From the NCBI GenBank assembly GCA_937872315.1, contig CALMST010000207.1, positions 1 to 53,029 on the forward strand: DNA of 53,029 bases, in the 5' to 3' direction. A program made the position numbers and the translations under genes. Within the stretch, counting starts at the first letter, position 1; each line of letters begins with the position of its first letter. Positions 36,677 through 44,955 of the stretch are shown in pieces. The notes under the pieces were generated by a model, which did not search any database, was not told the DNA's origin, and was given only the letters and a program-made list of their open reading frames with translations. The DNA is from an uncultured Ignavibacteria bacterium. Lineage in GTDB: Bacteria > Bacteroidota > Ignavibacteria > Tepidaquicellales > Tepidaquicellaceae.

Positions 36677-36716
36677 AGTAATCATTGAACAAAATGTTTT
36701 CGTTATCTTTTTAATT

Positions 36717-36748
36717 AACTAATTAACCTATCAACTAATTAACCTACC
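36717..36748. repeat. Two tandem 16-base repeats before ybjQ
   Basis: AACTAATTAACCTATC at 36717-36732 is followed directly by AACTAATTAACCTACC at 36733-36748, with one mismatch. The pair ends nine bases before the start codon at 36758. Confidence 0.9.
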
Positions 36749-37090: not shown

Positions 37091-37534
37091 TTTTACAAAT
37101 ATTATGAATTTGATAACCAGATGCCAGTCTGATCCGGAAAGATCAATATAATAAATTCTTTACCGAATGCAGAAATACCTGGCCGGTTTTTTATTGAAAG
37201 TTTAAAAGAAAGTCTGCAATGAAAAATTTCCTGATTGTAATACAGATAATTACCGGAAACTCATACTTGTCTGTCTGCAAAAATTTCAACTTACCGCACG
37301 GCAGGAAAGCTCTGACGTTCGTTACGGACAGGAAATTTTTGCTTCTGAACCGGATTTTAAAAAGTAATTAATTTTAAGAAATATTCCGGGCGGCACGGGG
37401 AAGTTTTTATGAAAATCATTTTTTCATAAATTTCATTTTTAAAAAATAATGTATATATTGCACGCATATTAAACGGCAGGTTATTTGTTACCTGTCATTG
37501 CCGATAAAAAATTTAAAAGACATACAGAACTAAC
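37091..37534. other. Non-coding region before the Phe leader peptide
   Basis: No convincing gene is seen in these 444 bases. They contain a GCAAAAATTTC/GAAATTTTTGC inverted repeat (37277-37287 and 37332-37342), and a 12-base sequence at 37222-37233 that is the reverse complement of 37329-37340. A hairpin (CAGGT at 37477-37481 with ACCTG at 37490-37494, with CGG/CCG outer pairs at 37474-37476 and 37501-37503) lies in the probable 5' leader. The operon promoter should lie around 37400-37470, but no element fits well. TATATTGC at 37453-37460 is only a weak match to the Bacteroidota -7 box. Confidence 0.5.
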
Positions 37535-37612
37535 ATGAAATTCACTTTCACATTTACATTTTTCTTTTTTAGCTTTAGCTTTTTTAGCCAAAGAGGGGCT
37601 TTGTATATGTGA
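37535..37612 (+). CDS. Phenylalanine-rich leader peptide (pheL-like)
   Basis: A 25-residue ORF from ATG at 37535 to TGA at 37610-37612. Ten of its 25 codons are Phe (residues 3, 5, 7, 9-12, 14, 16, 17), four of them consecutive at 37559-37570. The first 18 residues are MKFTFTFTFFFFSFSFFS. Such Phe enrichment immediately before a prephenate dehydratase gene is the hallmark of a leader peptide that senses charged tRNA-Phe through ribosome stalling, as pheL does in enteric bacteria. The stop lies just past the antiterminator strand (37594-37602), so a ribosome finishing the peptide would cover that strand. The ATG has no Shine-Dalgarno site, like other starts here. The peptide itself is probably not functional. 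Confidence 0.88.
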   Translation: MKFTFTFTFFFFSFSFFSQRGALYM

Positions 37613-37667
37613 ATTTAATACACATAAGATTTATTTAAAGCCTCTGAAATTCAGGGGCTTTTTTTTT
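37586..37667 (+). promoter_or_regulatory. Phenylalanine transcription attenuator (competing RNA hairpins)
   Basis: Segments can be assigned by eye. Segment 1 (AGCC, 37586-37589) can pair with segment 2 (GGCT, 37597-37600). Segment 2 (37594-37602) can pair over nine bases with segment 3 (37637-37645), one pair being G-U, to form an antiterminator. Segment 3 (37637-37647) can instead pair with segment 4 (37651-37661) to form the terminator. A 6-bp hairpin (TATGTG at 37606-37611 with CACATA at 37621-37626) brings segments 2 and 3 together. If ribosomes stall at the Phe codons, segment 2 is free and the operon is read. If they reach the stop at 37612, segment 2 is covered and the terminator forms. 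This logic is inferred; the pairings are directly readable. Confidence 0.85.
37637..37667 (+). terminator. Attenuator terminator upstream of pheA
   Basis: An 11-bp stem (37637-37647 with 37651-37661, one G-U pair) has a 3-base loop. It is followed by a run of nine T at 37659-37667. It is a strong intrinsic terminator placed 35 bases before the pheA start, with no gene ending upstream on this strand for 500 bases except the leader peptide. That position fits attenuation rather than gene-end termination. Confidence 0.93.
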
Positions 37668-37702: not shown

Positions 37703-38539
37703 ATGAAAGTAGCAATTCAGGGAATAAGAGGAGCTTTTCACGAAATAGCAGCCAGACAATATTTTGATGAAGAAATTGAAACTATTAACTGCACTAAATT
37801 CAGTCAGCTATTTGAAATTGTAAGATCCGGAAAAGCTGAATACGGAGTTGTTGCAATTGAGAATACTCTTGCAGGAAGCATACTTGAAAATTACAGTTTG
37901 CTCAAAGATTCAAAATTAAAAATAACAGGAGAGATCAGTTTATACATTTCGCAAAATCTAATGGCATTGCCCGGAACAAAGACCGGAAACATTACTGAGG
38001 TCTATTCGCATCCGATGGCGATCCTTCAGTCCAACGATTTTTTCAGCGCATATCCGGATATAAAACTGATTGAGTGGTCGGATACAGCTTCCAGCGCCAG
38101 GAAAATAGCTGAAGAAAATCTTTTGAATACCGGCGCTATTGCAAGCGAATATGCCGCTAAATTGTATGGACTTGAAATACTTGCCCATGAAATAGAAACC
38201 AACAAAAATAACTATACGCGCTTTATTATCATTCATAAAAAATCTCAGGACCTGCCTGAAAATAACAAGGCGTCTGTTTGTTTTGAACTTGACCACAGTC
38301 CCGGTTCTCTTACGGATGTTTTAAATGTTCTCAGGGATCACGGCATTAATCTGACAAAAATACAATCATTGCCGGTCATAGGAAGTCCATACAAATATTA
38401 TTTTCATGCTGACCTTGAATGGAAAGACCGTTCGAAATATGATCTTGCTTTGAACAAAATAATTAAGACAGTTTCAAATCTGTCAATGCTTGGTGAATAC
38501 AAAAGGGATGAAATGTTTAATCACGAAGCTTTTGAATAA
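37703..38539 (+). CDS. pheA: Prephenate dehydratase
   Basis: A 278-residue enzyme converting prephenate to phenylpyruvate in phenylalanine synthesis. The catalytic domain (about 1-180) opens with VAIQGIRGAFHEIAA and carries AIENTLAGSI (52-61) and the catalytic TRF motif (Thr172-Arg-Phe174). A regulatory ACT domain follows (about 191-268, SPGSLTDVLNVLRDHGINLTKI). The usual ESRP phenylalanine-site motif reads QSLP (221-224). Chorismate mutase is not fused here but to the next gene product. It is the first structural gene after the Phe attenuator and lies 40 bases before the DAHP synthase gene. Confidence 0.96.
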   Translation: MKVAIQGIRGAFHEIAARQYFDEEIETINCTKFSQLFEIVRSGKAEYGVVAIENTLAGSILENYSLLKDSKLKITGEISLYISQNLMALPGTKTGNITEVYSHPMAILQSNDFFSAYPDIKLIEWSDTASSARKIAEENLLNTGAIASEYAAKLYGLEILAHEIETNKNNYTRFIIIHKKSQDLPENNKASVCFELDHSPGSLTDVLNVLRDHGINLTKIQSLPVIGSPYKYYFHADLEWKDRSKYDLALNKIIKTVSNLSMLGEYKRDEMFNHEAFE

Positions 38540-38579
38540 TAAAAACCATTAAAAATATTTTAAAAATAAAAAACAAACT

Positions 38580-39674
38580 ATGAACATTAACTTAACTATT
38601 GAGTCTCTTGAAAGCTGGGGCGGTAATACCGGAAGACCCTTGATCATCTCCGGTCCATGCAGCGCTGAAACGGAAGAGCAGATGCTTTCAACCGCAAGAC
38701 AATTAAAAACACATGGGATAGGAATATTCAGAGCGGGTATCTGGAAACCAAGAACGCGTCCGAACCAGTTTGAAGGCGTTGGATCAATCGGATTGAAATG
38801 GCTGCGTCAGGTCAAAAATGAAACAGGAATGATGACTGCCGTCGAAGTAGCAAATGTAAAACACGTATATGAGGCTCTGAAAATGGGAGTCGATATTTTA
38901 TGGATAGGAGCAAGAACATCGGCAAATCCATTCTCCATACAGGAAATCGCAGACTCACTTGAAGGTGTGGACATTCCTGTACTGGTCAAGAATCCTGTCA
39001 ATCCGGATCTTGATCTGTGGATCGGCGCGATAGAGAGAATAGCCGGTGCGGGAATTACAAAACTTGCGGCTATACACAGAGGTTTCTCATCTTCGGAAAA
39101 AACCATTTACAGAAATGCGCCTAAATGGGAACTGGTCATTGAGCTGAGGCAAAGATTAATAAACATTCCGGTTATTTGTGATCCAAGCCACATAGCGGGA
39201 AGAGCTGATCTTGTATGCAGCGTGTCACAGCAGGCAATGGATCTCGGACATGACGGATTGATGATCGAATCTCATCCGGAACCGGTCAAAGCTCTTAGTG
39301 ACAGCAAACAACAGTTAACTCCGGATGAAACAGCAGCATTGATTAAAAATCTTATCATACGATCTGGCAGAACTGACAATGCAAAATACACTGCTTTGCT
39401 TATGGAGCTGCGTTCGAAAATTGATTCTCTTGATGATAAGATACTTTCTGTAATACAGAAGAGGATGGATATTGTAAAGGAAATCGGTATAACAAAAAAA
39501 ATGAATAATGTGCAGATACTTCAGACCGACCGTTGGACAGAGATCCTTGAAACAGCTAAAGAAAAAGGAAGTTCAAAAGGACTCAGTAATGAATTTATTG
39601 AAAAATTATTCAATGCAATGCATCAGGAGTCTATATCTGTTCAAACCGAAATATTAAATTCAGTAATGGACTAA
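38580..39674 (+). CDS. Bifunctional DAHP synthase / chorismate mutase
   Basis: A 364-residue fusion. Residues of about 15-265 are a type I DAHP synthase of the KDPG-like branch (IISGPCSAETEEQ, FRAGIWKPRTRPNQFEG, AAIHRGFSS, DPSHIAGRADLV), condensing PEP and erythrose 4-phosphate. Residues of about 275-360 are an AroQ-type chorismate mutase (LLMELRSKIDSLDDKILSVIQKRMDIVKEIG). The first and sixth steps before prephenate are thus on one chain, so carbon entry and the branch toward Phe/Tyr are expressed together. This fusion is known in Bacteroidota. Its stop overlaps the aroB start by one base. Confidence 0.95.
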   Translation: MNINLTIESLESWGGNTGRPLIISGPCSAETEEQMLSTARQLKTHGIGIFRAGIWKPRTRPNQFEGVGSIGLKWLRQVKNETGMMTAVEVANVKHVYEALKMGVDILWIGARTSANPFSIQEIADSLEGVDIPVLVKNPVNPDLDLWIGAIERIAGAGITKLAAIHRGFSSSEKTIYRNAPKWELVIELRQRLINIPVICDPSHIAGRADLVCSVSQQAMDLGHDGLMIESHPEPVKALSDSKQQLTPDETAALIKNLIIRSGRTDNAKYTALLMELRSKIDSLDDKILSVIQKRMDIVKEIGITKKMNNVQILQTDRWTEILETAKEKGSSKGLSNEFIEKLFNAMHQESISVQTEILNSVMD

Positions 39675-40738
39675 TGGAAAAATTAAATTGTATATCAGAA
39701 AATAAAAATATCCTTTCTATACAAAGTGAGATAGGTAATTCAAAAATAATAGTTGGGGAATCTCTTTCCAGTGTTTCGGAATATTTACCTGCGGGAAAAA
39801 AGACAGTTATAATAACTGACAGCACTGTTAAAGATCTTTACGGTCAGACTTTTCCGGAAGCTTGTTTGACAATTGAAATTCCGCAGGGTGAGAACAATAA
39901 AGTTTTACATACCCTGGATCTTGTTTTTGAAAAAATGACTGAAGCTGAAATTGACAGAACATCATTCATTCTTGGGATTGGAGGCGGCATAGTCTGTGAT
40001 GTTGCAGGGTTTGCTGCATCGGTCTATATGAGAGGAATTGAATTTGGCTTTGTTTCAACTACTCTTCTCAGTCAGGTAGATGCAAGTACCGGAGGAAAGA
40101 ACGGAGTAAACTTTAACGGATACAAGAACATGATAGGCACTTTTAATTTACCTGAGTTTGTAATATGTGATCAGGAGTTGCTTAAGACATTGCCCCGGCA
40201 TGAATTGATAAGCGGCATGGCGGAAGTTGTAAAGCACGGTGCAATTGCTGATCCGGGTTTTTTCAGATTTATAGAAGAGAACGCACATAACGTTCTTATG
40301 TATGATATTGAAGTGCTTGAAAAAATTGTTTACGAGTCAGTAGTAATTAAATCCGGAATAGTAAAAAAGGATGTAAAAGAAAACGGAGTCCGCAAAATTT
40401 TAAACTTCGGACATACGATAGGGCATGCAGTAGAAAAGTTTACCGGAATGCAGCACGGAATGGCAATCAGCACAGGAATGACATTAGCTGCGGAAATCTC
40501 TGCAGCCAGAGGACTTATAGAAAAGCAGGAAGCTGACAGGATACCGGCATTGCTGCAAAAACTCGGACTTCCGGTGAAATTACCGATCGGGCCGGAAATT
40601 CTTCTGGAAGCAATCAGAAGAGATAAAAAACGGGAAGGTGATCATATAAAATTTGTATTACTTGATAAAATAGGTTCTGCCTGTATTGAAAAAATTTCTC
40701 TTGAAGAATTAAAATCAATTTTAAATGATCTGTATTAG
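39674..40738 (+). CDS. aroB: 3-dehydroquinate synthase
   Basis: A 354-residue NAD- and zinc-dependent enzyme converting DAHP to 3-dehydroquinate. Motifs include IIITDSTVKDLYG, GIGGGIVCDVAGFAASVYMRG (about 101-121), VSTTLLSQVDASTGGKNGVN, and the metal-ligand regions GMAEVVKHG and LNFGHTIGHAVE with a further His in MQHGMA. The length is normal. It starts inside the previous stop (TAATG) and overlaps aroD by 14 bases, so it is translationally coupled on both sides. Confidence 0.97.
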   Translation: MEKLNCISENKNILSIQSEIGNSKIIVGESLSSVSEYLPAGKKTVIITDSTVKDLYGQTFPEACLTIEIPQGENNKVLHTLDLVFEKMTEAEIDRTSFILGIGGGIVCDVAGFAASVYMRGIEFGFVSTTLLSQVDASTGGKNGVNFNGYKNMIGTFNLPEFVICDQELLKTLPRHELISGMAEVVKHGAIADPGFFRFIEENAHNVLMYDIEVLEKIVYESVVIKSGIVKKDVKENGVRKILNFGHTIGHAVEKFTGMQHGMAISTGMTLAAEISAARGLIEKQEADRIPALLQKLGLPVKLPIGPEILLEAIRRDKKREGDHIKFVLLDKIGSACIEKISLEELKSILNDLY

Positions 40739-41366
40739 TATTTCCGAAAAAAGTAAAGACAAGTGCCTGGAAATTATCAGATCTGCTGAAATGGCTGAGA
40801 TCCGGATCGACATGGCGGGATACGATGAGACTGATGTGCGTTATGTATTTTCAAATTCCGGGAAACCATTGATTGCAACCTGCAGACCTGAAATTGTAAA
40901 AGACTCTGAACGCAAGATTCTTCTCAAAGCTGCAATAGAAACAGGTGCTGAATATGTCGATATAGAAACTGATGCGGAAAATAATTTAAAACACGAAATT
41001 ATCGGGTTTGCAAGATCACAGGGATGTAAGGTGATAGTGTCTTATCATAATTTTAAGAACACGCCTGATCCCGGTGAATTACATTCAATCATAAGATCGT
41101 GTTATGATTCAGGAGCTGATATTGCAAAGATCGCAACAACTGCTTTAAACACCCGGGATTGTGCAAGAATACTTTCTTTGTATGGGTATTATGATTCGCT
41201 GGTTGCACTGGCAATGGGCGAGGCAGGCAAGATCACAAGAGCGGCAAATATTTTTATGGGAAGTCCTTTTACATTTGCTGCAATATCAGATGAGCAGAAA
41301 ACAGCGCCCGGACAGTTTACTGTCTGTGAATTAAATCAAATCAAATCCATAATTAAAAAAGATTGA
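40725..41366 (+). CDS. aroD: Type I 3-dehydroquinate dehydratase
   Basis: A 213-residue TIM-barrel enzyme that dehydrates 3-dehydroquinate through a Schiff base. The catalytic residues are visible: His108 in VSYHNF and the Schiff-base Lys135 in ADIAKIATTA. EIRIDM near residue 25 and the ATCR (51-54) bind substrate. GSPFTFAA at the C-terminus is typical. It starts 14 bases before the end of aroB and is followed after four bases by the aroE-aroK fusion gene. Confidence 0.95.
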   Translation: MICISISEKSKDKCLEIIRSAEMAEIRIDMAGYDETDVRYVFSNSGKPLIATCRPEIVKDSERKILLKAAIETGAEYVDIETDAENNLKHEIIGFARSQGCKVIVSYHNFKNTPDPGELHSIIRSCYDSGADIAKIATTALNTRDCARILSLYGYYDSLVALAMGEAGKITRAANIFMGSPFTFAAISDEQKTAPGQFTVCELNQIKSIIKKD

Positions 41367-41370
41367 CTGT

Positions 41371-42678
41371 TTGACCAAAAGTATAAAAATATTTGCAGTA
41401 ACCGGAAAACCGGTTTTACACAGCAGGAGTCCCGCTATGTTTAACAAGGTATTTTCAAAAAATGGAATTGATGCAGTATATCTTAGGCTTGCGGCAAATG
41501 ATCCCGGAGAGGCTATCCGGCTATTCAAAGAACTTGGGATCAGCGGAATGAATGTTACATCTCCATTTAAGGAAAGCATTGTAAATTATCTTGATAAGAT
41601 CCACGGCGCTGCAGGAATTCTGGGTTGTGTAAACACAATTATTGAACGAGAAGGGAAACTGCATGGATATAACACGGATACTTTCGGAGTTACTCAAAGT
41701 TTTAAAGATCACGGAGTTAAACTGAAAGGAAAACGTTGTCTTGTGATCGGTGCGGGAGGTGCGGGTAAAGCTGCAGCATATAGTATGCTTAAATCAGGCG
41801 CCGAAGTTATAATGGTTAACCGCACAGATTCAAAAGCAAAGAAAGCAGCTAAGGTAATTGGTTGCAAATACAGAGATTTCAGCACATTAAAGGAATTGGT
41901 GAAAAAGTCTGATATCATAATTTCAGCATTAGTCCAAAATATTAATCCGGTAAAGAAAAGGTGGCTTAATTCTTCACAAGTGATATTTGATGCTAATTAC
42001 GGAAATTCGGAATTGAATTCAATAGCTGTTGATAAAGGCTGTAATATTATAAATGCAGAGAAATGGCTGGTCAATCAGGCAATAAGATCGTATGAAATTT
42101 TTCTGAATGAAAAACCTGATAAAGAATCAATGAAAGAAGGACTCAGTGATTGTAAAATTGCTGAAAAGAAAAACAGAATATCATTCATCGGGCTTTCAGG
42201 TTCAGGTAAAACAGATACCGGAAAAGCATTAGCTGAAAAATTAAAATATGATTTCATAGATATTGACGAATTGATAAGTATTAGAAATGGAAAGACCATT
42301 GCAGATATATTTGAAACATGCGGTGAAGAACATTTCAGGGAGCTTGAAAAAAGTGAACTGGAGGAAAGAATAAAATCAAAAGCCTCGCAGATTATTTCAT
42401 GCGGAGGAGGAATAGTTCTGAACGAATCCGTCAGAATGACTTTAACTAAAAATTCAATTGTGATATGGCTATATGCATCACCCGAAATTATTCACAAAAG
42501 AATTGATATAAATAGCAGACCTCTGCTTCAGGTTGAGGATCCTTTGACTAAACTTAGAAAACTTTTTATTTCAAGGACAGGACATTATGCCGGAACAGCT
42601 CATATTATTTTTTCAAATGAAGAAAACACAATTAATCAAATTTTAAAAAACATTATAAAAGAACTGAATTCAATATGA
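41371..42678 (+). CDS. Bifunctional shikimate dehydrogenase / shikimate kinase
   Basis: A 435-residue fusion of AroE and AroK functions. Residues 1 to about 260 are shikimate dehydrogenase: substrate motif SRS (18-20), catalytic Lys67 in NVTSPFKES, Asp103 in GYNTDTFG, and NADP motif VIGAGGAGKAA (125-135). Residues of about 268-435 are shikimate kinase: Walker A GLSGSGKT (274-281), shikimate-binding DIDE (297-300), FRELE with Arg323, and the GGG turn (345-347). Together they take 3-dehydroshikimate to shikimate 3-phosphate. No frameshift is present; the frame is continuous. The TTG start is needed to keep the N-terminal strand. It overlaps aroA by four bases (ATGA). Confidence 0.95.
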   Translation: MTKSIKIFAVTGKPVLHSRSPAMFNKVFSKNGIDAVYLRLAANDPGEAIRLFKELGISGMNVTSPFKESIVNYLDKIHGAAGILGCVNTIIEREGKLHGYNTDTFGVTQSFKDHGVKLKGKRCLVIGAGGAGKAAAYSMLKSGAEVIMVNRTDSKAKKAAKVIGCKYRDFSTLKELVKKSDIIISALVQNINPVKKRWLNSSQVIFDANYGNSELNSIAVDKGCNIINAEKWLVNQAIRSYEIFLNEKPDKESMKEGLSDCKIAEKKNRISFIGLSGSGKTDTGKALAEKLKYDFIDIDELISIRNGKTIADIFETCGEEHFRELEKSELEERIKSKASQIISCGGGIVLNESVRMTLTKNSIVIWLYASPEIIHKRIDINSRPLLQVEDPLTKLRKLFISRTGHYAGTAHIIFSNEENTINQILKNIIKELNSI

Positions 42679-43937
42679 CAACAAAAAATAAAATCTTACA
42701 TGCAGCTGAAATTAAAGGAACAATTACAGCGCCTGCATCAAAAAGCATAATACAGAGATTCATTGCAATTGCAGCACTTACGAAAGGTAGATCAATTCTG
42801 CATGGCTATACTCCCTGCAATGACAGTAAAGCCGCGCTTCAGATAGCTAAAGACCTCGGAGCTGAGGTATTATCTGATGGAAATAAAGTAATAATTAACG
42901 GAAATTTTAAACCGGTATCCAGGACACTTAACTGCGGTGAGTCAGGATTAGGTCTCAGAATGTTTGCTCCGATAGCAGCATTATGGAATTCACCAGTCAC
43001 TTTAACCGGTGAAGGTTCATTGAAGACAAGACCTGTCGGCATGCTCGAGCAGCCCTTAAGCGACATGGGAATTATGATCAAAACATATAACGGAACTTTA
43101 CCGGTAGAGGTCTGCGGTCCATTCAAAGGAGGGATTTCTATTTTAAACGGATCAATCAGTTCGCAGATACTTACAGGCTTACTTATCGCAAGTCCGCTTG
43201 CTGTAAGCGATACAACAATTCTTGTGCGTGACCTGAAAAGCAAACCATACATTGACATGACAATTCAGATCATGGCGGATTTTGGCGTGGAAGCATTGCA
43301 TGATGAGTATGAGACTTTTACAATTAAGTCAGGGCAGAGATATTCAGAACGGGAATACACAGCAGAAGGCGACTGGAGCGGAGCTTCGTTTTTACTTGTT
43401 GCCGGCGCGCTTGGTGGTTCGGTAACAGTTGAAAATCTAAGTACAGACTCAAAGCAGGCAGATTCAGCAGTCCTGAAAGTAATTGAAGATGCCGGCGCAA
43501 TTGTAACTGTAACAAGGGAAAATGTAAAAGTAGAAAAAAATGAACTTAATGCATTTGAATTTGATGCTACTGAAAGTCCCGATCTTTTTCCGCCTTTAGT
43601 TGCGTTAGCTGCACATTGTAATGGAGTATCCGGGATCAAGGGAGTATCGCGGCTGAAACATAAAGAGAGCGATCGCGCGACTGTACTTATGAATGAGTTT
43701 GCGGAACTCGGAACGAACATTGAGATCGGAGATGATACAATGTTTGTTTACGGAGGAACATTTAAAGGCGGTAAATTAAATTCCAATAATGATCACAGGA
43801 TAGCAATGGCAGGAGCGGTTGCATCGATCTTATCGGAGGAACCGGTTATGATAGAAGATTACGGATGTGTGGCAAAGTCATATACAGATTTTTTTAAAGA
43901 CCTTGAAAAGATCAGCAACCCGGCAGTAATGGTTTAA
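42675..43937 (+). CDS. aroA: 3-phosphoshikimate 1-carboxyvinyltransferase (EPSP synthase)
   Basis: A 420-residue enzyme joining shikimate 3-phosphate and PEP. Lys23 in APASKSIIQR, the SRRL-like KHKESDRA region and the Asp in ESPDLFPP are present. The loop that reads GNAGTAMRP in E. coli reads CGESGLGLRM (87-96) here, so the positions of Thr97 and Pro101 (E. coli numbering) are Leu and Met. This form seems typical of Bacteroidota-like enzymes rather than of class I or II. It overlaps the aroE-aroK gene by four bases and is followed after 28 bases by aroC. Confidence 0.95.
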   Translation: MTTKNKILHAAEIKGTITAPASKSIIQRFIAIAALTKGRSILHGYTPCNDSKAALQIAKDLGAEVLSDGNKVIINGNFKPVSRTLNCGESGLGLRMFAPIAALWNSPVTLTGEGSLKTRPVGMLEQPLSDMGIMIKTYNGTLPVEVCGPFKGGISILNGSISSQILTGLLIASPLAVSDTTILVRDLKSKPYIDMTIQIMADFGVEALHDEYETFTIKSGQRYSEREYTAEGDWSGASFLLVAGALGGSVTVENLSTDSKQADSAVLKVIEDAGAIVTVTRENVKVEKNELNAFEFDATESPDLFPPLVALAAHCNGVSGIKGVSRLKHKESDRATVLMNEFAELGTNIEIGDDTMFVYGGTFKGGKLNSNNDHRIAMAGAVASILSEEPVMIEDYGCVAKSYTDFFKDLEKISNPAVMV

Positions 43938-43965
43938 ATAATTAATTTAAAAAAATAAAAAATAT

Positions 43966-44955
43966 ATGAACAGTTTCGGAAGATCATACAGGGTAAGCAT
44001 ATACGGTGAAAGCCACGGATTACAGATCGGAGTGGTCATTGACGGATGTCCTGCGGGAATTGCCATAAGTGAATCAGATCTTGAAGAGGACCTTTCACGA
44101 CGTAAATCGGGAGGTAAGGGAACAACTCCCCGAACAGAGCCTGATATTCCAAAGATTGTAAGCGGTGTATATAACGGTAAAACAACAGGCGCACCTCTTA
44201 CTGTCATTTTTGAAAATACAAATATCAAATCAGGAGATTATTCCAATCTTAAAGATCAGCCACGACCCGGCCATGCAGATCTTACAGGCAGGAAAAAGTT
44301 CGGAGGTCTTAATGACCCAAGAGGCGGCGGACATTTTTCAGGAAGACTAACTCTATGTCTTGTAGCAGCAGGTATAATTGCAAAAAAAATTATAGCGCCT
44401 TCGAAAGTAACAGCTTCTCTCACAGAAGCAGGAGGAAGTAAGGAAATTCAAAGAGCTGTTGATAAAGCGCTCGAAGAAAATGATTCTATAGGAGGTATCA
44501 TAGAATGCCGTTGTGAAAATATTCCGGCAGGGATAGGCGAACCGTTTTTTGATTCGGTAGAATCAGAAATATCTCATATTATATTTTCAGTACCGGCAAC
44601 CAAAGGGATAGAATTCGGTAGTGGGTTCGCATCAGCACGGATGAAAGGAAGTGAGCATAATGATCTCATTATCGATAATGAAGGACTTACAAAAACCAAT
44701 TATGCCGGAGGAATTAACGGCGGTTTATCAAACGGAAATGAAATTAATTTCCGGGTGGCAATAAAACCCGCATCGAGTATTAGCATACCGCAGGAGACAT
44801 ATAACTTTAAATCAGGTAAAGTCGAGACTCTTGAGATAAAGGGAAGGCATGATGCCTGCATAGCTTTGAGAGCTCCCGTTGTAATAGAGTGCGCTGCTGC
44901 CATAGCAATTGCCGATCTGATGCTTGAGGCACAGATCAGGAAGAAGGTCTTTTAG
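43966..44955 (+). CDS. aroC: Chorismate synthase
   Basis: A 329-residue FMN-dependent enzyme that converts EPSP to chorismate. Family signatures are GESHGLQIGVVIDGCPAG near the start, then RRKSGGKGTTPRTEPD, RPGHADLTGRKKFG, and the C-terminal GRHDACIALRAPVVIE. It lacks some of the loops of longer family members (about 350-360), but all the flavin-contact segments listed are present. It is the last gene of the operon. No strong terminator is evident in the 163 bases that follow. Confidence 0.97.
   Translation: MNSFGRSYRVSIYGESHGLQIGVVIDGCPAGIAISESDLEEDLSRRKSGGKGTTPRTEPDIPKIVSGVYNGKTTGAPLTVIFENTNIKSGDYSNLKDQPRPGHADLTGRKKFGGLNDPRGGGHFSGRLTLCLVAAGIIAKKIIAPSKVTASLTEAGGSKEIQRAVDKALEENDSIGGIIECRCENIPAGIGEPFFDSVESEISHIIFSVPATKGIEFGSGFASARMKGSEHNDLIIDNEGLTKTNYAGGINGGLSNGNEINFRVAIKPASSISIPQETYNFKSGKVETLEIKGRHDACIALRAPVVIECAAAIAIADLMLEAQIRKKVF

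Follow-up and report, generated by a model that had tools for sequence, protein, structure and literature searches.

A 53,029-nt stretch of DNA, referred to here as the window, carries a locus that very probably works by classical ribosome-mediated transcription attenuation, reading charged Phe-tRNA and controlling an operon for the shikimate pathway and prephenate dehydratase. Upstream of the first gene, we found a short ORF in which codons for Phe, the operon's end product, are abundant, an intrinsic terminator between this leader and the first gene, and an antiterminator that is mutually exclusive with the terminator. The 5' strand of the antiterminator is predicted to be exposed by a ribosome stalled at the control codons and hidden by one that has reached the stop codon, as judged from folds and from covariation across 63 loci. 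The positions of these features are listed in Table 1.

Table 1. Features of the leader region and of the operon in the window.
Feature	Position	Strand	Basis
Leader peptide ORF, MKFTFTFTFFFFSFSFFSQRGALYM*, 10 Phe	37535..37612	+	Sequence reading; equivalents at 62 other loci
Control region, Phe codons 3-17, without Tyr	37541..37585	+
1:2 hairpin, Phe-codon RNA with strand 2	37547..37613	+	MFE structure; predicted for untranslated leader
Strand 2, antiterminator 5' strand, within last leader codons	37593..37604	+
Leader stop codon	37610..37612	+	Sequence; masking of strand 2 by the ribosome presumed from footprint geometry and fold
Strand 3, common to antiterminator and terminator	37637..37647	+
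Strand 4, terminator 3' strand	37651..37661	+
Nine-T tract of intrinsic terminator	37659..37667	+	Sequence
pheA, prephenate dehydratase, ACT-like C-terminal part	37703..38539	+	PF00800, 202 bits
Type I DAHP synthase-chorismate mutase fusion	38580..39674	+	PF00793, PF01817
aroB, 3-dehydroquinate synthase	39674..40738	+	PF01761
aroD, type I 3-dehydroquinase	40725..41366	+	PF01487
aroE-aroK fusion, shikimate dehydrogenase + shikimate kinase	41371..42678	+	PF08501, PF01488, PF01202
aroA, EPSP synthase	42675..43937	+	PF00275
aroC, chorismate synthase, compact 329-aa form	43966..44955	+	PF01264

In the window sequence, the leader ORF runs for 25 codons from a candidate ATG at 37535 to a TGA at 37610-37612, and the ten Phe of MKFTFTFTFFFFSFSFFSQRGALYM all fall in codons 3 to 17. 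An earlier note on this DNA had described a 25-codon ORF with ten Phe codons, and every coordinate that it gave proved correct. When the 612-nt intergenic region was shuffled with its dinucleotides preserved, an ORF of at most 45 codons with at least 10 Phe arose in 0.37% of 3,000 shuffles. Short ORFs with at least 7 Phe arose in 13% of shuffles of the region, and the T-richness of the leader tract by itself inflates the Phe codon count. No Shine-Dalgarno site was seen for the leader ORF. Bacteroidota are known to begin translation without such sites. A sigma-70 scan for a promoter gave nothing above chance. A second DNA match in the host's own genome (contig C339) was considered as a second attenuator and rejected, as it is a low-complexity stretch with a chance match to the T-rich leader. 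Three further elements were observed on the 5' side. A stable hairpin, GGCAGGU...ACCUGUC (37475..37496, + strand; -10.6 kcal/mol by folding), lies in the presumed 5' UTR ahead of the leader start. A dispersed repeat of approximately 150 nt (37188-37343), present in many copies at 71 to 79% identity in two same-genus genomes (G001 and G002), lies just 5' of the leader region. A sequence of approximately 32 nt (36713-36744), 5' of a YbjQ-family gene, likewise has many copies, at 83 to 94% identity, in same-genus genomes.

The RNA of the leader region can adopt mutually exclusive structures. Strand 2 (AGGGGCTTT, 37594-37602) pairs with strand 3 (AAAGCCTCT, 37637-37645) with a single G-U pair, forming the antiterminator. 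Strand 3 is also the 5' arm of the terminator (37637-37661), an 11-bp stem with a 3-nt loop that lies between the leader and pheA. The leader was folded more stably than expected (z = -4.5, equaled by 0 of 200 shuffles), as was the terminator region (z = -3.7), and the 2:3 duplex was matched by 0.65% of shuffles. Since the 2:3 and 3:4 stems are equal in energy (-15.1 versus -14.9), the switch must be kinetic. The order of synthesis would decide between the stems, as it does in other attenuators. The RNA was folded state by state. For stalls at Phe codon 3, 9, 12, or 17, with the edge of the ribosome placed 12 nt beyond the first A-site base and the RNA synthesized as far as strand 3, the 2:3 antiterminator was the best structure. 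A ribosome at the stop codon masked strand 2, and the 3:4 terminator formed; with no ribosome, 1:2 and 3:4 formed together. The alternative antiterminator and nine-T terminator proposed in the earlier note are thus present in the sequence and are supported by these folds. Its suggestion that a ribosome at the stop codon would cover the antiterminator strand agrees with the fold of that state, which gives 3:4 under the presumed footprint geometry. The 1:2 hairpin had been missed; it fills out the classical set of alternatives.

These structures suggest the following mechanism, if transcription and translation are coupled in this lineage, as we assume. The leader would be transcribed and translated, and when Phe-tRNA is scarce, the ribosome would stall at one of the ten Phe codons. 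The stalled ribosome would leave strand 2 free to pair with strand 3 as it emerges; with strand 3 held in 2:3, no terminator would form and RNA polymerase would continue into pheA-aroC. When Phe is ample, the ribosome would reach the stop codon and cover strand 2, 3:4 would form, and transcription would stop at the T tract. A leader left untranslated should give termination too, with the Phe-codon RNA taking strand 2 in the 1:2 hairpin. The operon would in this way respond to Phe.

The controlled operon spans 37703 to 44955, with its seven genes in the order shown in Table 1, separated by gaps of at most 40 nt or, in several cases, overlapping. By Pfam, it encodes all seven shikimate steps to chorismate together with chorismate mutase and prephenate dehydratase, and the last two activities are both of the committed steps to phenylpyruvate. 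The PF00800 match bears out the identification, made in the earlier note, of the first downstream gene as prephenate dehydratase. The claim that the leader would control the complete shikimate pathway held in that the operon contains every step; such control of many genes is not unique to the window, since leader-bearing Bacteroidales and Chitinophaga loci likewise have pheA-aroG-aroB-(aroD)-aroC operons. In one family of genomes (f24), PheA is fused to DAHP synthase-chorismate mutase in a single ORF of approximately 670 aa (L014, 1486-3507), and this gene also has an aromatic leader and a terminator on its 5' side. The chorismate synthases differ in form: those of the class-mates match in two parts with a break near residues 145 to 165, which suggests an extra segment in their proteins, and AroC of the Bacteroidales UBA1715 and Chitinophaga relatives matches in one piece.

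The relatives of the operon are found in Bacteroidota. The closest PheA and AroC are those of the Bacteroidales UBA1715, at 63% identity each, and a quick PheA tree placed the window's protein as sister to that of UBA1715 with a support of 99; the PheA proteins of the class-mates are at most 50% identical to it. The nearest relative operon, in UBA1715, has the order pheA-tyrA-aroG-aroB-aroD and the leader MTNTYTYFFFYFYYFSSKIGAVCMD. Within the host's genus, G002 (97% complete) has both flanking genes adjoining, with approximately 130 nt between them and no operon: at this empty site (L122, 980-1120), a YbjQ-family gene is followed by a BNR-repeat gene. Chorismate synthase was found in none of the 26 genomes that represent other genera of the family, nor in any of 15 genomes from the other family of the taxonomic order. 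Because of the empty site in G002, the absence of AroC in the family, and the closeness of PheA and AroC to Bacteroidales, the simplest reading is that the cassette and its switch were probably gained horizontally, by part of the genus, from a Bacteroidales-like donor. The alternative is that the operon was inherited from the ancestor of the order and that every other sampled genome has lost it. G001 (67% complete), the one same-genus genome found to share the operon, would fit such an ancestry: its aroE-K, aroA, and aroC are 73% identical at the DNA level and have the same neighbors downstream, and its contig ends inside aroE-aroK, short of the leader. The age of the operon is therefore at least that of part of the genus. 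An origin in the whole order is nonetheless unlikely, given that in G002 the same flanking genes stand with no operon between them, that all 41 genomes sampled outside the genus, from the rest of the family and from the order's other family, lack AroC, and that the nearest PheA and AroC lie in Bacteroidales and not among the class-mates.

Leaders of this kind, which usually have both Phe and Tyr codons, stand upstream of pheA in much of Bacteroidota. We gathered PheA homologues from genomes of the host's class and, with an alignment as the query, from named genomes, and scanned their upstream regions for a short ORF (at least 5 aromatic residues within ten) with a terminator after it. A leader with a terminator was present 5' of pheA at 63 of 116 loci, the window included, and the same scan of dinucleotide-shuffled upstream regions found none in four of four repeats. 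A relaxed search added 24 loci, mostly from Flavobacterium, which have a leader and whose terminator the scan had missed; their leaders include MSNNRFYFSNSFYFFFSRSEDCAMVI*, and the sequences displayed also have AGGATTGT ... ACAATCCTGATGAAAATCAGGATTTTTTTTT. Among Bacteroidota-type PheA loci, 87 of 100 thus have a leader and 63 of 100 have both elements. No leader was found at the 16 loci with the other PheA type, and no leader with a terminator was found at 60 further, more distant pheA loci of the class. By record titles, the groups with leaders include Bacteroidales, Flavobacteriales, Chitinophagales, Sphingobacteriaceae, and Cyclobacteriaceae.

The leader sequences are almost wholly different from locus to locus. 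The start of strand 2 lies at a median of 9 nt (interquartile range, 7 to 12) past the last aromatic codon. Covariation was measured by comparing matched with mismatched strands rather than with a covariance model. The mean 2:3 energy was -15.3 kcal/mol for matched strands, versus -8.4 in shuffles and -10.6 when strands were exchanged between loci, and the matched mean was reached by 0 of 10,000 permutations. Strands 2 and 3 change together, and this is compensatory change. The earlier note had proposed looking in relatives for Phe-rich ORFs and alternative stems; aromatic leader ORFs with alternative stems were found at 63 to 87 of 100 related pheA loci, with compensatory change in 2:3.

These comparisons also bear on other explanations of the switch. 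The structures could be real and the signal something other than stalling at Phe codons, with a protein or metabolite setting the terminator or the leader peptide acting in trans. Some bacteria do have leader peptides that act in trans (PMC7298713), and the window gave weak, subthreshold Rfam matches to other classes, such as a PyrR site and the trpB motif. This explanation is nevertheless highly improbable: no T-box or riboswitch reached its Rfam gathering score in the window, no conserved RNA domain was seen besides the leader ORF and the stems, and the narrow range of distances from the last aromatic codon to strand 2 is what is expected of a ribosome ruler. Less probable still is a constitutive terminator without attenuation, serving for example transcripts from upstream, with the Phe-rich ORF as a T-rich by-product, for although the tract is T-rich and short ORFs with at least 7 Phe are not rare in shuffles, the leader, terminator, and complementary strand co-occur 5' of pheA in dozens of genomes whose sequences differ, the leader-terminator set never appeared in shuffles, the strands covary, and the relatives' leaders use both Tyr and Phe codons and so are not mere T tracts.

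The cluster in the window contains 10 Phe and no Tyr. The clusters of the 62 other leaders together contain 285 Phe and 221 Tyr codons, and every one of them includes Tyr. If codons were drawn from a common pool, a Phe-only cluster would have a binomial probability of 0.003. The window lacks the mixed Phe and Tyr cluster of the Bacteroidota pheA leader group; its leader is a Phe-only variant of that group, matching it in its site before pheA, in its terminator, and in the place of strand 2.

The aromatic metabolism of the host was examined in its own genome (96% complete). No prephenate dehydrogenase (TyrA) was found above the cut-off (20.3 versus 26.5 bits), Phe hydroxylase, TrpE, and HisG were not found, and there were no PF00425 chorismate-binding enzymes at all. 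Positive controls for the TyrA, TrpE, and PF00425 searches were found in 14 of 14 cases. Chorismate seems to be made for Phe alone, with PheA as its sole user among the families tested, the futalosine route (MqnA) being outside that set. Because PheA is the sole chorismate user among these families, a Phe-only gauge over the entire pathway is sensible. The idea that the Tyr content of the leader tracks TyrA everywhere was only partly borne out: in G392, G406, and G415, the leader has Tyr codons and TyrA gave no match. TyrA scored above the cut-off in 25 of 28 genomes with leaders that were examined from beyond the window's order. The fit between leader codons and operon output, for which the Phe-only leader is a single case, is therefore suggestive and not proven. 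One scenario, to which we give an even chance, is that a dual Phe and Tyr attenuator common to Bacteroidota moved into a lineage without Tyr or Trp synthesis and that the leader was then retuned to Phe, so that the sensor codons match the output.

The best Rfam match of the window leader was RF01859 (Phe_leader), which covered model positions 1 to 125 of 125 with a score of 32 bits (E = 0.0016) and did not reach the gathering score of 55 bits. The leader works like RF01859 and is not filed as a member. It resembles the pheL-pheA system of Escherichia coli and other enterobacteria in having a leader of Phe codons just 5' of pheA, the 1:2, 2:3, and 3:4 alternatives, and an intrinsic terminator. 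However, pheL-pheA controls one branch, whereas the attenuator in the window lies over the whole shikimate pathway, differs in sequence, and has relatives with mixed Phe and Tyr leaders. The Leu/phe leader of Lactococcus lactis (RF01743), which is named for Phe and is found outside Proteobacteria (PMC2864571), belongs to a different phylum, and the window gave no match to it.

Closer to the host, Bacteroid-trp (RF01692) is a listed cis-regulatory motif of Bacteroidetes (PMC2864571). It is linked by name to tryptophan genes and thus to a different operon, and the window had no match to it at the gathering score or among the subthreshold matches. In Flavobacterium psychrophilum, strong clues for leader-peptide attenuation 5' of amino acid biosynthesis operons have been reported, along with a structured element 5' of pheA that is conserved in Flavobacteriaceae and has no Rfam match (PMC9723704). 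The gene, pheA, is the same as in the window, and the Flavobacterium leaders found here (MSNNRFYFSNSFYFFFSRSEDCAMVI* among them) very probably correspond to this element. In the main text of PMC9723704, there is no explicit Phe/Tyr leader, no spread beyond the family, and no Phe-only version. A map for Bacteroides thetaiotaomicron treats leader-like sORFs in general terms only.

The earlier note had named no well-described Phe case in the phylum. The novelty is lower than this implies: strong clues for attenuation and a pheA element had already been reported in Flavobacterium (PMC9723704) and Bacteroid-trp in Bacteroidetes (PMC2864571). We found no account of the phylum-wide Phe/Tyr leader in the open-access literature, to which the search was directed; priority is uncertain, as the bulk of the subscription literature, a 2010 comparative survey of attenuation among it, was outside this scope. 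What is new here is the Bacteroidota-wide Phe/Tyr leader together with its Phe-only version, and the mechanism itself is classical.

These findings support widespread ribosome-coupled attenuation in the phylum, which predicts tight coupling of transcription and translation there. The codon makeup of the leader, Phe and Tyr or Phe only, offers a simple readout of the products that an operon serves, and the cassette resembles a natural case in which an auxotrophic lineage gained a pathway and its supply gauge together. Trp codons were also observed within or beside the cluster in ten leaders (L028, L126, L134, L139, L143, L148, L156, L169, L192, and L198), hinting that several aromatic leaders sense all three amino acids.
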